Positions 8,438 to 61,296 of a DNA stretch of 64,000 nt are shown here, piece after piece (the stretch's first letter is position 1; each line of letters begins with the position of its first letter). The position numbers were made by a program, and so were the translations under genes. The notes under the pieces were generated by a model. It made no database searches and was not told the origin of the DNA. It saw only the letters and a list, made by a program, of their open reading frames with translations. The DNA is from Acidovorax sp. sic0104 (GTDB taxonomy: Bacteria; Pseudomonadota; Gammaproteobacteria; Burkholderiales; Burkholderiaceae_C): contig NZ_JAHUWH010000002.1 in assembly GCF_019219095.1 (NCBI RefSeq), forward strand, positions 434,001-498,000. Direction: 5' to 3'.

Positions 8438-8484
8438 GCTATGAAAAGTGAAGCTGCCAGCGCTTACCCATCAAGCGCTGGCAG
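8438..8484 (+). repeat. family A double-hairpin repeat, copy 1 (gyrA-serC gap)
   Basis: Hairpin 1 is GCTAT, a 7-nt loop and GAAGC. Hairpin 2 is a perfect 12-bp stem (8454-8465 with 8473-8484) around the 7-nt loop ACCCATC. A TGTTTTTGA tail follows, so this copy could also act as a weak terminator. It fills most of the gap between gyrA and serC. Confidence 0.8.
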
Positions 8485-8503
8485 TGTTTTTGATGGATTG
8501 ATC

Positions 8504-9613
8504 ATGAACCGTCCCTATAACTTCTCGGCCGGCCCGGCCGCCATTCCCGCCGAGGTGCTGGAGCAAGCCGCTGCCGAAATGCTCGACTGGCATGGCAGCG
8601 GCATGGGCGTGATGGAGATGAGCCACCGCGGCAAGGAATTCCTCTCCATCTATGAACAGGCTGAAGCCGACCTGCGTGCACTGCTGGCCGTGCCTTCCAA
8701 CTTCAAGATTTTGTTCATGCAGGGCGGCGGCCTGGCCGAAAACGCCATCGTGCCGCTGAACCTCTCCCGCGCCGGTGTGGTCGATTTCGTGCTGACCGGC
8801 AGCTGGAGCCAGAAGTCCCAGAAGGAAGCCCGCAAGTACGCCTCCGAGGTGAACATCGTCGGCTCGGCCGAGGACACGGGCTTCACCACCCTGCCCGACC
8901 CCGCCACCTGGACGCTGAGCCGTGGCGCCAGCTACCTGCACATCTGCAGCAACGAGACCATCAACGGCATCGAATTCCACCAACTGCCGGACATCCAGGC
9001 CCTGGGCAGCGATGCCCCCCTGGTCATCGATTTCTCGTCGCATGTGGCGTCGCGCCCCGTGGACTGGTCGCGCGTGGGCCTGGCCTTCGGCGGCGCCCAG
9101 AAGAACCTCGGCCCCGCCGGGCTGACCCTCGTCGTGGTGCGCGAAGACCTGCTCGGCCACGCCCTGCCCGCCTGTCCCAGCGCCTTTGACTACAAGACAG
9201 TGGCTGACAACCAGTCCATGTACAACACCCCGCCGACCTGGGGCATCTACATTGCCGGCCTCACCTTCCAGTGGCTCCTGCGCCAGACCGAAGGTGGCCT
9301 TACCGGCGTGGCCGCCATGGAGCGTCGCAACATCGGCAAGGCTGAACTGCTTTACAACGCCATCGACAGCTCGCAGCTGTACGTGAACAAGGTGGCCGCC
9401 AACTGCCGCTCGCGCATGAACATACCGTTCTTCCTGCGCGACGAAAGCCGCAACGACGCGTTCCTGGCAGGGGCCAAGGAACGCGGCCTGCTGCAGCTCA
9501 AGGGCCACAAGTCCGTGGGTGGCATGCGCGCCAGCGTCTACAACGCCATGCCGCTGGCTGGAGTGCAGGCGCTGGTGGACTACATGCGAGAATTTGAACA
9601 AAAACACGCCTGA
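8504..9613 (+). CDS. serC: phosphoserine aminotransferase, 369 aa
   Basis: SerC is a pyridoxal-phosphate enzyme that converts 3-phosphohydroxypyruvate to phosphoserine in serine synthesis and also serves pyridoxine synthesis. The start at 8504 gives the family N-terminus [15 protein letters not shown]. Upstream in-frame ATG at 8441 lies inside a repeat element and is rejected. MQGGG, the DFSSH segment and [14 protein letters not shown], which carries the PLP-binding Lys, are all present. Length is normal. It sits between gyrA and pheA, as in the known serC-aromatic gene groups of beta- and gammaproteobacteria. Confidence 0.97.
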
Positions 9614-9666
9614 ACCGGAACCTCCACCGACACCTGTTCTCGCGAAAGCGCACTGACACCCCATTC

Positions 9667-10764
9667 ATGAATACTCCGCAAGCCTCACCCGACCTCGCCA
9701 GCCTGCGCGTGCAGATCGACTCCATCGACCAGCAACTGCTCACGCTGCTCAACCAGCGGGCTCTGGTGGCCGAACAGGTGGGCGAAGTCAAGAAGCGCGA
9801 AGGCACGCCGTTCTTCCGCCCCGACCGCGTGGCGCAGGTCATCGAGAAGATCCAGACGGCCAACCCCGGCCCGCTCAAGGGTCCCCATGTGGCGGCCATC
9901 TGGCGCGAGATCATGTCCGCCTGTCTGGCACTCGAGTCACCCCAGCGCGTGGCCGTGCTCGGCCCTGAAGGCACCTTCTGCGAACAGGCGGCCATCGAAT
10001 TCTTCGGCGGCGCGGCCGACCTGATGTACTGCGCCAACTTCGACGAGGTGTTCCACGCCACAGCCGCCGGCAGCGCCCAGTACGGCGTGGTGGGCGTGGA
10101 GAACTCCACCGAAGGCGTGGTCACCCGCTCGCTCGACCTGTTCCTGCATACCCCCACCCACGTGGTGGGCGAAGTGAGCCTGCTGGTGCGCCACAACCTG
10201 CTGCGCACCACCAACTCGCTGGACGGCATCGAGGTAGTGCTCGCGCACCCGCAGGCACTGGCGCAGTGCCAGGCCTGGTTGTCCAAGCACCTGCCACATG
10301 CCGAGCGCCGCCCTGTGTCGAGCAACGCCGAAGGCGCACGCCTGGCCACCACCAACCCCGCCTGGGCGGGGCTGTCCAGCGAGCGAGCTGCCACCCAGTT
10401 CGGCCTGCACATCGTGGCGCACGCGATCCAGGACGACGCCTACAACCGCACCCGCTTCGCCATCATCTGCCTGCCACACACGCTGCAGACGCCGCCGCCC
10501 TCTGGCAAGGACTGCACCAGCCTCGTGGTGTCGGTGCCCAACCGGCCCGGCGCGGTGCACGACCTGCTGGTCCCGCTCAAGACCCACGGCGTGTCCATGA
10601 CGCGCTTCGAATCGCGCCCGGCACGCACGGGCCAGTGGGAGTACTACTTCTACATCGACCTGGACGGCCACCCAGCCCAACCCCACGTGGCACGAGCCCT
10701 GGAAGAGCTGCGCAGCCTGTGCGCGTTCTACAAGGTCCTGGGAACCTACCCTGTCTCGTCGTAA
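9667..10764 (+). CDS. pheA: bifunctional chorismate mutase/prephenate dehydratase, 365 aa
   Basis: PheA converts chorismate to prephenate and then to phenylpyruvate on the phenylalanine branch. Residues about 10-95 form the AroQ-type mutase domain (LRVQIDSIDQQLLTLLNQRA). Residues about 105-280 form the dehydratase, starting VAVLGPEGTFCEQAA and containing the catalytic-site motif NRTRF. An ACT domain from about 285 has ESRP, the phenylalanine-binding feedback site. It lies 53 bp after serC and 12 bp before tyrA, so co-transcription is likely. Feedback inhibition by phenylalanine is expected from the ACT domain. Confidence 0.97.
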   Translation: MNTPQASPDLASLRVQIDSIDQQLLTLLNQRALVAEQVGEVKKREGTPFFRPDRVAQVIEKIQTANPGPLKGPHVAAIWREIMSACLALESPQRVAVLGPEGTFCEQAAIEFFGGAADLMYCANFDEVFHATAAGSAQYGVVGVENSTEGVVTRSLDLFLHTPTHVVGEVSLLVRHNLLRTTNSLDGIEVVLAHPQALAQCQAWLSKHLPHAERRPVSSNAEGARLATTNPAWAGLSSERAATQFGLHIVAHAIQDDAYNRTRFAIICLPHTLQTPPPSGKDCTSLVVSVPNRPGAVHDLLVPLKTHGVSMTRFESRPARTGQWEYYFYIDLDGHPAQPHVARALEELRSLCAFYKVLGTYPVSS

Positions 10765-10776
10765 GGAACAGCCGCC

Positions 10777-59735: not shown

Positions 59736-59773
59736 TCCTGCCCTCCCCTTCGACGACGACCACGGACACCGCA

Positions 59774-61111
59774 ATGGCCACCATCCTCCAAAACCTGCCC
59801 ACCGGCCAGAAGGTCGGCATCGCCTTCTCCGGCGGCCTCGACACCAGCGCAGCCTTGCACTGGATGAAGCTCAAGGGCGCCGTTCCCTATGCCTACACTG
59901 CCAATCTGGGCCAGCCCGACGAGCCCGACTACGACGCCATCCCGCGCAAGGCGATGGAATACGGCGCCGAGAAGGCCCGCCTGATCGACTGCCGCGTGCA
60001 GCTGGCCCACGAAGGCATCGCCGCCCTGCAGGCCGGCGCCTTCCACATCTCCACCGGCGGCCTGACCTACTTCAACACCACGCCCCTGGGCCGCGCCGTG
60101 ACCGGCACCATGCTCGTGGCGGCCATGAAGGAAGACGACGTCAACATCTGGGGCGACGGCTCGACCTTCAAGGGCAACGACATCGAGCGCTTTTACCGCT
60201 ACGGCCTGCTGACCAACCCGTCGCTCAAGATCTACAAGCCCTGGCTGGACCAGCTGTTCATCGACGAACTGGGCGGCCGTGCCGAGATGTCGGCATTCAT
60301 GACGCAAGCCGGCTTCGGCTACAAGATGAGCGCCGAGAAGGCCTACAGCACCGACAGCAACATGCTGGGCGCCACGCACGAGGCCAAGGACCTGGAGTTC
60401 CTCAGCAGCGGCATCCGCATCGTGAACCCCATCATGGGCGTCGCGTTCTGGAAGGACGATGTGGCGGTCAAGGCCGAGGAAGTCTCGGTGACCTTCCACG
60501 AAGGCCAGCCCGTCGCCCTGAACGGCAAGGAATTCAACGACCCGGTCGAGCTGATCCTGGAAGCCAACCGCATCGGCGGCCGCCACGGCCTGGGCATGAG
60601 CGACCAGATCGAGAACCGCATCATCGAAGCCAAGAGCCGCGGCATCTACGAAGCCCCGGGCCTGGCGCTGCTGCACATCGCCTACGAACGCCTGGTGACC
60701 GGCATCCACAACGAAGACACCATCGAGCAGTACCGCATGAACGGCCTGAAACTCGGCCGCCTGCTGTACCAGGGCCGCTGGTTCGACCCCCAGGCCATCA
60801 TGCTGCGCGAAACCGCCCAGCGCTGGGTGGCCCGCGCCGTCACCGGCACGGTCACGCTGGAACTGCGCCGCGGCAATGACTACTCGCTGCTGAACACCGA
60901 ATCGCCCAATCTGACCTACGCGCCCGAGCGCCTGTCGATGGAGAAGGTGGAAGACGCGCCGTTCAGCCCGCTGGACCGCATCGGCCAGCTGACCATGCGC
61001 AACCTGGACATCTCGGACACGCGCAACAAGCTGGGCGTGTACGCCAAGTCAGGCCTGTTGTCGCTGGGCGGCAACGCGGCCCTGGCCCAGCTGGAAAACG
61101 ACCGCAAGTGA
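59774..61111 (+). CDS. argG: argininosuccinate synthase, 445 aa
   Basis: ArgG joins citrulline and aspartate with ATP in arginine synthesis. The ATP-binding P-loop-like motif is [15 protein letters not shown] near residue 17. The chain is of the longer E. coli type (447 aa), as shown by [20 protein letters not shown]. The start at 59774 follows the ppnP gene, and the longer frame is a shadow. A strong terminator lies downstream beyond a family A repeat. Confidence 0.97.
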
Positions 61112-61150
61112 GGTCCAGGTGGGTGCGGCACCGGAGAGCAATCCCGGCCG

Positions 61151-61187
61151 CCCCACCCCGCCCCACCCCGCCCCACCCCACCCCGCC
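61151..61187 (+). repeat. short tandem repeat, unit about CCGCCCCACC
   Basis: Three to four imperfect copies of a 10-bp CCGCCCCACC unit lie 40 bp past the argG stop. Read on the other strand it is G-rich. Confidence 0.7.
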
Positions 61188-61239
61188 TGCAACGGCGGCA
61201 CAGAGCACGGCTCCCTAGCTGTACCAGTGTTGAATAGGC

Positions 61240-61296
61240 ATTAAAATAGCCCCTACCGCTTGATAGACAAGCGCTAGCAGCTATCAAATAAATAGC
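61240..61296 (-). repeat. family A repeat, copy 12 (between argG and murB)
   Basis: On the minus strand, GCTAT-TTATTTG-ATAGC has a perfect 5-bp stem. It is followed by arm TGCTAGCGCTT, the 7-nt loop GTCTATC and AAGCGGTAGGG. It is the cleanest copy with both hairpins. Confidence 0.85.

Follow-up and report, generated by a model that had tools for sequence, protein, structure and literature searches.

A dispersed tagged-hairpin repeat of Acidovorax and related genomes, conserved at shared sites and resembling REP sequences

The repeat in the window and in the genome

The stretch analysed here, called the window below, comprises 64,000 nt of the genome of Acidovorax sp. sic0104 (G000:C22:434001-498000; genome size 5.82 Mb). 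It harbours copies of a dispersed element of about 69 nt composed of a CT dinucleotide, an A/T-rich spacer, an RTAGC tag, a stem-loop of 9-10 bp and an A/T run. The initial annotation had listed twelve such copies in the window, described as double hairpins. Eleven of the twelve places coincide with matches of a weight matrix built for the element, which missed the one at 33154. A covariance model retained eight of the listed places as solid (8433, 16306, 24850, 28757, 39661, 43573, 48080 and 61232), with E values from 3e-5 to 4e-27. The copies at 8433, 28757, 39661 and 61232 sit in the alignment of the model and match it by construction; those at 16306, 24850, 43573 and 48080 are not among its sequences. 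The remaining four fared less well, the place at 14063 being doubtful and those at 57679, 33149 and 12653 unsupported by the model (Table 1). The segment 14063-14111 resembles a conserved leader in which the second stem is unpaired, upstream of a gene that we take to be of the rpsA type. The gene downstream of the first copy is presumably of the serC type, and its protein has its nearest named relatives in Acidovorax (96% in Acidovorax sp. NB1).

The covariance model was built from 55 copies and run on the window with its filters off. The weight matrix has 70 ungapped columns, calls one strand per site, and was trained on the same 864 kb of the genome that it scanned, to which our copy analyses refer. 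At a score of at least 10 it found 104 matches, compared with 3 in the reversed sequence, and at 14 or more the numbers were 103 and 1. The single match scoring 10-14 was left out of the working set of 103 copies, in which the overlapping matches at C11 487431 and 487474 count as two. The density is 119 per Mb, which extrapolates to approximately 690 copies per genome. Searching the whole genome with the tag-and-stem pattern GATAGCTNNNAGCGCTNNNNNNNCAAGCGC and up to 3 mismatches gave 241 matches (139 forward and 102 reverse, in part overlapping owing to the palindromic stem), whereas the backwards control gave none. The repeat family is real, far beyond chance. Both orientations occur, as first described, with 59 copies on the minus and 44 on the plus strand.

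No description of the element was recognized in full-text literature with thin coverage of subscription journals, and its consensus strings match no paper. None of the words Delftia, Comamona-, Variovorax, Polaromonas, Burkholderia or Ralstonia occurs in the accessible part of PMC3733652. As regards an association with phages, 74 stretches have an exact match in 2.9 million viral contigs.

Table 1. Element copies and candidate copies in the window (matrix, weight-matrix score; E, covariance-model E value)
Feature	Position	Strand	Evidence
Copy, site A, upstream of a presumed serC-type gene	8433..8502	+	E 6.9e-19 (in model alignment); matrix 54.3; 51 orthologues aligned
Tag of the 8433 copy, GAAGC, a variant of RTAGC	8450..8454	+	Alignment columns A20, G21 and C22 invariant in 51 sequences
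Stem 2 (second hairpin) of the 8433 copy	8457..8481	+	Covariation count
Doubtful copy within a gene call, site B	12644..12713	+	Matrix 25.6; no model match at E≤1; conserved, probably coding stretch; no covariation in 46 sequences
Doubtful copy in front of the gene called at 14146, in a conserved stretch, stem 2 not formed	14042..14111	-	E 1.7e-4 (14063-14111); 31.7% of stem-2 cells paired in 21 sequences
Copy, site D	16305..16374	+	E 3.2e-5; 24 sequences, 13 double-change cells vs 8.8 ± 2.5, 72/1000
Copy	24845..24914	+	E 6.2e-13; matrix 43.1
Copy	28757..28826	+	E 3.6e-20 (in model alignment); matrix 61.2
Unsupported place (33154 in the initial annotation)	33149..33229	+	E 0.69 (chance level); matrix <10
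Copy	39661..39730	+	E 3.1e-21 (in model alignment); matrix 63.2
Copy	43573..43642	-	E 2.8e-10; matrix 46.8
Copy, followed by a separate GC-rich hairpin in the same gap	48075..48144	+	E 2.8e-7; matrix 40.2
Weak copy within a gene call	57679..57748	-	Matrix 28.9; E 0.29 (chance level)
Strongest copy of the window, with a separate hairpin and T run after it on the + strand	61232..61301	-	E 4.3e-27 (in model alignment); matrix 78.5

Anatomy of the element

The consensus reads AATTGCTAT, a 7-nt A/T-rich spacer, (A/G)TAGC, T and a stem of 9-10 bp with a 7-nt loop, followed on the 3' side by GAGGCC, a run of A or T, ACTC and an A-rich end. Both A/T runs may consist of A or of T. In the C11 seeds (800 kb) the information spans approximately positions -15 to +53 around the tag, with almost none beyond. 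The tag is ATAG in 69 of the 103 copies, GTAG in 21 and GGAG in 6, and CT occupies positions -10/-9 in 94 of them. The GC content of the eight solid window copies is 0.40-0.58.

The geometry first proposed holds in part. In the 55 copies of the model, the alignment needs no gaps across the 7-nt spacer or across a second stem of 9 bp closed by a 7-nt loop, while the 11-nt arm is not general. In its exact form, GCTAT-N7-ATAGC is present just twice in the window. The view that spacing is kept better than base sequence is half right, as no part is better kept than the TAGC tag.

Among these 55 copies, 84% of the cells of the 14 pairs are paired. Covariation between them is modest (score 0.169 vs 0.144, reached in 4 of 500 shuffles), and there is no excess of double-change pairs (5 vs 5.4 in shuffles, 420/500). 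Loop 2 reads GTCCATC-like or, as its reverse complement, GATGGAC-like within a fixed outer frame, and the two orientations exceed what column shuffling gives (4.01 vs 3.57 ± 0.05 matches).

Conservation of the tag and of the second hairpin

We used 48 orthologue pairs, 24 for each of the genomes G316 and G187, which are related species of the same genus, leaving out syntenic copies without a unique partner or with a partner facing the other way. The 5' flank and loop 2 have a divergence of 0.44 and 0.47, the outer and inner parts of stem 2 of 0.38 and 0.23, the tail run of 0.19 and GCTAT of 0.15, while ATAGC is down to 0.04. By base, divergence is 0.04/0/0/0 for T/A/G/C of the tag, with A, G and C each unchanged in all 48 pairs, and 0.02 for the C at -10.

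A dead family similar to miniature inverted-repeat transposable elements (MITEs) or to repetitive extragenic palindromic (REP) sequences, devoid of any present role, would account for copies that are old, divergent and without sign of activity, and its apparent conservation would then be a product of a matrix that favours consensus-like copies. We consider this very improbable. In the two genomes, a match was lacking for no more than 1 of 26 and 2 of 28 syntenic copies, which makes search bias an unlikely cause of the tag conservation, yet A, G and C of the tag show zero divergence next to a flank at 0.44.

At site A upstream of serC, the alignment of 51 sequences contains 56 double-change cells in which the pair is kept, compared with 21.1 ± 3.6 after shuffling (0/500), whereas slid controls reach at most 32. 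Both stems were counted, and 54 of the 56 cells belong to stem 2, where they affect 8 of 9 pairs. The consensus fold of this alignment comprises stem 2 only, and its covariation term is small (-0.15 kcal/mol). Stem 1 is not kept at this site: at least six orthologues (L089, L090, L098, L105, L107 and L108) lack GCTAT and retain ATAGC, as seen in several sequences of Comamonas type. The two required hairpins of the initial annotation thus find no support, while the selection on a folded structure that it suggested is supported for the second hairpin. Site E, which faces against its genes, agrees (7 double-change cells vs 2.8 ± 1.3, 4/1000), as does site D more weakly, where paired cells score 6/1000 and double changes as given in Table 1. 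Across the genus orthologue pairs, 275 of 432 stem-2 pairs are kept, compared with 238 ± 8 in a simple simulation. Compensatory stem changes are thus clear at two of the six sites and weak at a third. Since relatedness inflates the shuffle tests and templated repair is possible, this evidence for selection on structure is good but not final.

Natural selection appears to maintain the element at most of the sites examined, which points to a function in the cell that reads it.

Genomic context

Genes were called by a simple in-house script alone, and these calls cover approximately 86% of the DNA. They contain 23 of the 103 copies; the other 80 are intergenic, 53 of them between tandem genes (27 facing as the genes and 26 opposite), 22 in convergent and 5 in divergent gaps. 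Gaps of at least 60 nt amount to 65.9 kb tandem, 17.6 kb convergent and 27.8 kb divergent DNA, and thus divergent gaps are avoided and convergent gaps favoured. The tandem copies show no strand bias relative to genes, for which the initial annotation had suggested looking.

Several of these features could reflect a role in RNA at transcript ends, where the hairpin would stabilize, process or terminate messages and, being a palindrome, would work in either direction. Indeed, 75 of the 80 intergenic copies lie downstream of at least one gene, many carry a hairpin with a T-rich tail, and the strongest covariation was found at a site between two genes of the same direction. We nevertheless deem such a role unlikely. 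Facing is balanced between tandem genes, and the two arrangements are alike in how well they conserve the strand-specific tag, with ATAGC divergence of 0.03 against the genes (12 pairs), 0.04 with them (16 pairs) and 0.00-0.07 in four smaller context groups. The T run of the tail is independent of the direction of transcription (13 of 27 same-facing vs 19 of 26 opposite-facing copies), which lends no support to a terminator or untranslated-region role tied to that direction. Two window copies share their gap with a separate hairpin, and the 15 Rfam matches in the window (E≤1) all fall outside the listed copies.

An ordinary double-stranded binding site with A-tracts, recognized by a nucleoid protein, gyrase or another protein, would place the stem covariation under templated quasi-palindrome mutation. 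A-runs and T-runs are both common at the two A/T positions, as A-tracts predict, conservation is blind to orientation, and convergent gaps are favoured; the gyrase-bound bacterial interspersed mosaic elements (BIMEs) of Escherichia coli also favour such gaps. We doubt this explanation too, as stems have been swapped for different but complementary sequences, e.g. in L106 of the serC alignment, and therefore the stem bases themselves are not read. Moreover, inversion of the loop is uncommon between genus orthologues (1 flipped, 15 direct and 32 unclear of 48). Frequent inversion of the hairpin loop was accordingly set aside as a process, though paralogues show both loop orientations.

Two other features of the window were recorded. 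An inverted repeat of 26 bp, 96% complementary, lies at 24984-25059 and contains GGGCTGAGCTTGTCGA, with similar motifs in related stretches. Positions 51360-52049 hold a tandem tRNA block with a period of 375-376 bases and copies that are 99-100% identical.

Shared sites and age of the copies

The copies of the genome share a mean pairwise identity of 49%, and the highest identity between nearest neighbours is 74%. The corresponding maxima are 77% among 58 copies in 200 kb of G015 and 74% among 18 copies in 200 kb of G332. No near-identical copies indicative of recent activity were found in these samples, i.e. 864 kb of the own genome and 200 kb each of the other two.

The sites themselves are shared. 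Between C11:403-600 kb and G316, 24 of 26 syntenic copies have a counterpart at the same place and in the same orientation, with 3 further copies lacking synteny; for G187 the numbers are 26 of 28, with 1 further copy. In the opposite direction, all 28 copies of G316 are syntenic and 26 are matched in the own genome, one of them on the other strand, and of 33 copies of G187, 30 are syntenic and 26 matched. The copy upstream of serC is present in 50 of 80 named SerC loci, as compared with 2 matches in the reversed control, and its carriers include Acidovorax, Comamonas, Simplicispira, Giesbergeria, Ramlibacter, Rhodoferax and Xylophilus. Among the same 80 loci, it is absent from those of Delftia, Hydrogenophaga and Paracidovorax citrulli and from Acidovorax Root219, A1169 and CF316. 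At site F, a copy was found in 28 of 30 loci, and the other two (G329 and G334) were probably excised at the wrong place.

A small mobile element, as the initial annotation had proposed, is therefore plausible for the origin of the family but not for its present state, because near-identical copies are missing from the samples and positions are fixed.

Some copies touch coding sequences. At L041:2447-2516 (C11:202447-202516 of the own genome), the element overlaps the start of a coding sequence and reads as part of a signal peptide-like stretch (ILLIAASA...). A similar arrangement is seen in G187 (L182, approximately 9572-9641, minus strand), with LLFIAASA... in the corresponding stretch; the orthologue of that gene in the own genome has a different start, without the element. 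At L131:17313-17382, the junction of two tandem genes that we take to be of the RNase PH and rdgB types, the upstream frame ends within the element. The equivalent gap of genome G339, which is poor in copies, has a length of 74 vs 76 and no copy.

Distribution, element-poor genomes and the RAYT gene

We searched 299 GTDB genomes of the family with a two-mismatch pattern. At least 20 raw matches were found in 43 genomes from 22 genera, with up to 769 in one genome, compared with 0-7 per genome in the backwards control. Owing to the palindromic stem, such raw counts, for the family as for the genus, include many copies twice. The covariance model marks 134 of the 299 family genomes and 13 of 200 genomes from the order; just four of these 13 show more than two matches, and all four are members of the same family. 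At most 16 candidates per genome were scored in the family search and at most 25 in the order-wide search, and these searches therefore tell presence or absence and not copy number.

In the genus, 41 of 47 genomes are rich in the element (45-709 raw matches) and six are poor (2-8). Site E holds a copy in all 26 rich genomes fetched; it is absent from three of the four poor ones and reduced to a relic in the fourth (G311), which is included in the 25 distinct site-E sequences. Of 29 own copies, only 2 could be placed by synteny in the poor genome G339 and 3 in G306. An intact copy is missing from all five sites, one of which holds a relic with a score of 24.3. When 200 kb of each were scanned, G306 gave five weak matches (18-32) and G339 none.

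A molecular drive of the kind known from DNA uptake sequences would explain many of these features: DNA bearing the element would be taken up better, and recombination would restore intact copies. Shared sites, a near-invariant core, indifference to orientation and context, the lack of recent duplicates in the samples and near-total loss in single lineages would all follow. However, the uptake sequences of Neisseria and Pasteurellaceae are short double-stranded motifs with no compensating stem, and an element of 69 nt that has one is far larger. In addition, just the 23 copies mentioned above lie in gene calls, which make up most of the DNA. This explanation appears quite improbable to us.

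The initial annotation had also pointed to a RAYT, the presence of which might track copy number. A RAYT domain was detected with the Pfam model in 222 of the 299 family genomes, in 38 of the 43 rich ones and in 44 of the 47 genus genomes, including all six poor members, and a RAYT that tracks copy number is thus not supported. A protein search covering 16 chosen genomes found full-length orthologues in three of the five rich family genomes without the domain (G095, G141 and G196), a partial one in G256 and none in G270. The RAYT of the own genome matches NF047646 at 72.6 bits, under the cut-off of 80, and the TnpArep structure 4er8 weakly (E 0.0092).

A copy adjoins the 3' end of the RAYT gene in several genomes. 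At a score of at least 14, one copy is found there in 9 of 14 rich genus genomes and none in the other five, nor in the six poor ones; the own genome has a weak copy at this end, and the same end carries one in G225 and G015. In eight rich genomes of other genera with a full-length rayt, three have one adjoining copy and five none. As background, 67 of 692 gene 3' ends have a copy. These numbers are suggestive of an enrichment at the RAYT 3' end, perhaps reflecting one ancestral site. Six further Y1_Tnp loci of the genus (L157-L162), some of which are perhaps another gene, have no copy within 1.5 kb. A rayt gene flanked by two inverted copies was not found in the rich genomes checked (14 of the genus and 8 of other genera).

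Interpretation

The best-kept positions of the element, namely CT, TAG and parts of the stem, are approximately the same set as those recognized by TnpAREP. According to the accessible parts of PMC8266576 and PMC2817692, the target of that enzyme is a hairpin in single-stranded DNA with GTAG unpaired at its foot, and the CT cleavage site is chosen via the AG of the tag. This resemblance leads us to a reading in terms of an old, RAYT-like spread and a present upkeep by a factor that recognizes the folded strand. The copies probably spread long ago by single-strand transposition of the RAYT or IS200-IS605 type, CT being the putative cleavage site and the tag its guide, as in the published TnpAREP model. 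Spreading would since have stopped, and the sites would now be kept because a trans-acting reader binds tag and hairpin; upon loss of this reader, or of its use, the copies would disappear. We give roughly even credence to the element being such a formerly mobile, REP-like recognition element of folded DNA, as a single strand or a cruciform, now under purifying selection by a trans-acting reader. More tentatively, and with more doubt than belief, the repeats might form a genome-wide DNA-structure code, with approximately 100 to more than 1,000 tagged hairpins per genome by extrapolation, frozen in place and each under purifying selection, served by a dispensable trans-acting reader and lost jointly with it.

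Several observations weigh against the reading as an old, RAYT-like spread with present upkeep by a reader. Covariation is absent at sites B (8 vs 9.2), C (0 vs 1.0) and F (0 vs 1.0), of which B and F fall within or across conserved sequence that is probably coding, and templated quasi-palindrome repair could produce paired changes without selection. No clean empty site was seen among four aligned candidates for presence and absence (G187 15066, 29631 and 10359; G316 116164). Lagging-strand single-strand transposition might have left a strand bias, and none was found relative to the G-rich replication strand (127 vs 111, p 0.33), in a test that is weak because some segments have almost no GC skew. 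Known REPs carry GT[AG]G; here the tag has the right position, but it is mostly ATAG, with A as its usual first base. Lastly, the rich genome G270 has no RAYT match, and neither have the rich G327, G331 and G336, which are only 82-90% complete; conversely, the six poor genus members retain RAYT proteins that are 70-76% identical, and the same holds for the three poor genomes tested from other genera.

The family's own RAYT is the leading candidate for the reader, yet an insufficient one. As poor genomes retain it, RAYT alone does not explain maintenance, and the reader would be another protein or RAYT would need a partner.

What REP-type repeats bring to their host is still disputed, decades after their discovery. 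The usual confounder of REP studies, recent copying, is not seen in this family. Individual sites can be traced across many genera, and one genus holds genomes with and without nearly the whole set. With 41 rich and six poor members to compare, the function of the repeat and the nature of its reader are thus directly testable by comparison of gene contents.

Comparison with known systems

The element resembles the REP substrates of RAYT nucleases but departs from REP/RAYT systems in several defining features. Like the GTAG-tagged REPs associated with RAYT/TnpAREP in E. coli, Stenotrophomonas and Pseudomonas, it consists of hundreds of small palindromes located mostly between genes, each with an imperfect stem whose 5' foot bears an unpaired tag ending in TAG, and with a CT outside, in a genome that encodes a Y1 HUH-type protein. 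Unlike them, it has a conserved unit of approximately 69 nt, although its tag and hairpin alone, at approximately 37 nt, would fit the 20-40 bp of REPs. It also shows no near-identical copies in the samples, and its sites are common to several species. It differs from a REPtron in that rayt is not flanked on both sides, and genomes nearly devoid of copies retain this gene.

As far as the accessible part of the paper describes them, the betaproteobacterial repeat elements (BREs) of Hot et al. (2011; PMC3110155) are elements of approximately 90 bp with 69% GC on average in Bordetella, with up to 29 copies, in places in tandem, and with 13 copies in Delftia acidovorans. They share with our element the nature of short betaproteobacterial repeats, Comamonadaceae included, that are mostly intergenic with some copies in genes. 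The two are set apart, by description and not by sequence, by the 40-58% GC of our eight solid window copies and by the hundreds of copies. We found no element match in the four Delftia loci L071, L072, L077 and L079. The window also contains a second, GC-rich dispersed repeat of 63 nt with the core GGTGGCCTGGC...AGCCAGTTCCACGG, at 11690-11752, 31204-31266 and 63061-63123, whose copies are 70-89% identical to the first one; this repeat is possibly a candidate BRE.

DNA uptake sequences offer a further parallel, as they too form hundreds of conserved, context-blind sites that are subject to lineage-wide loss.

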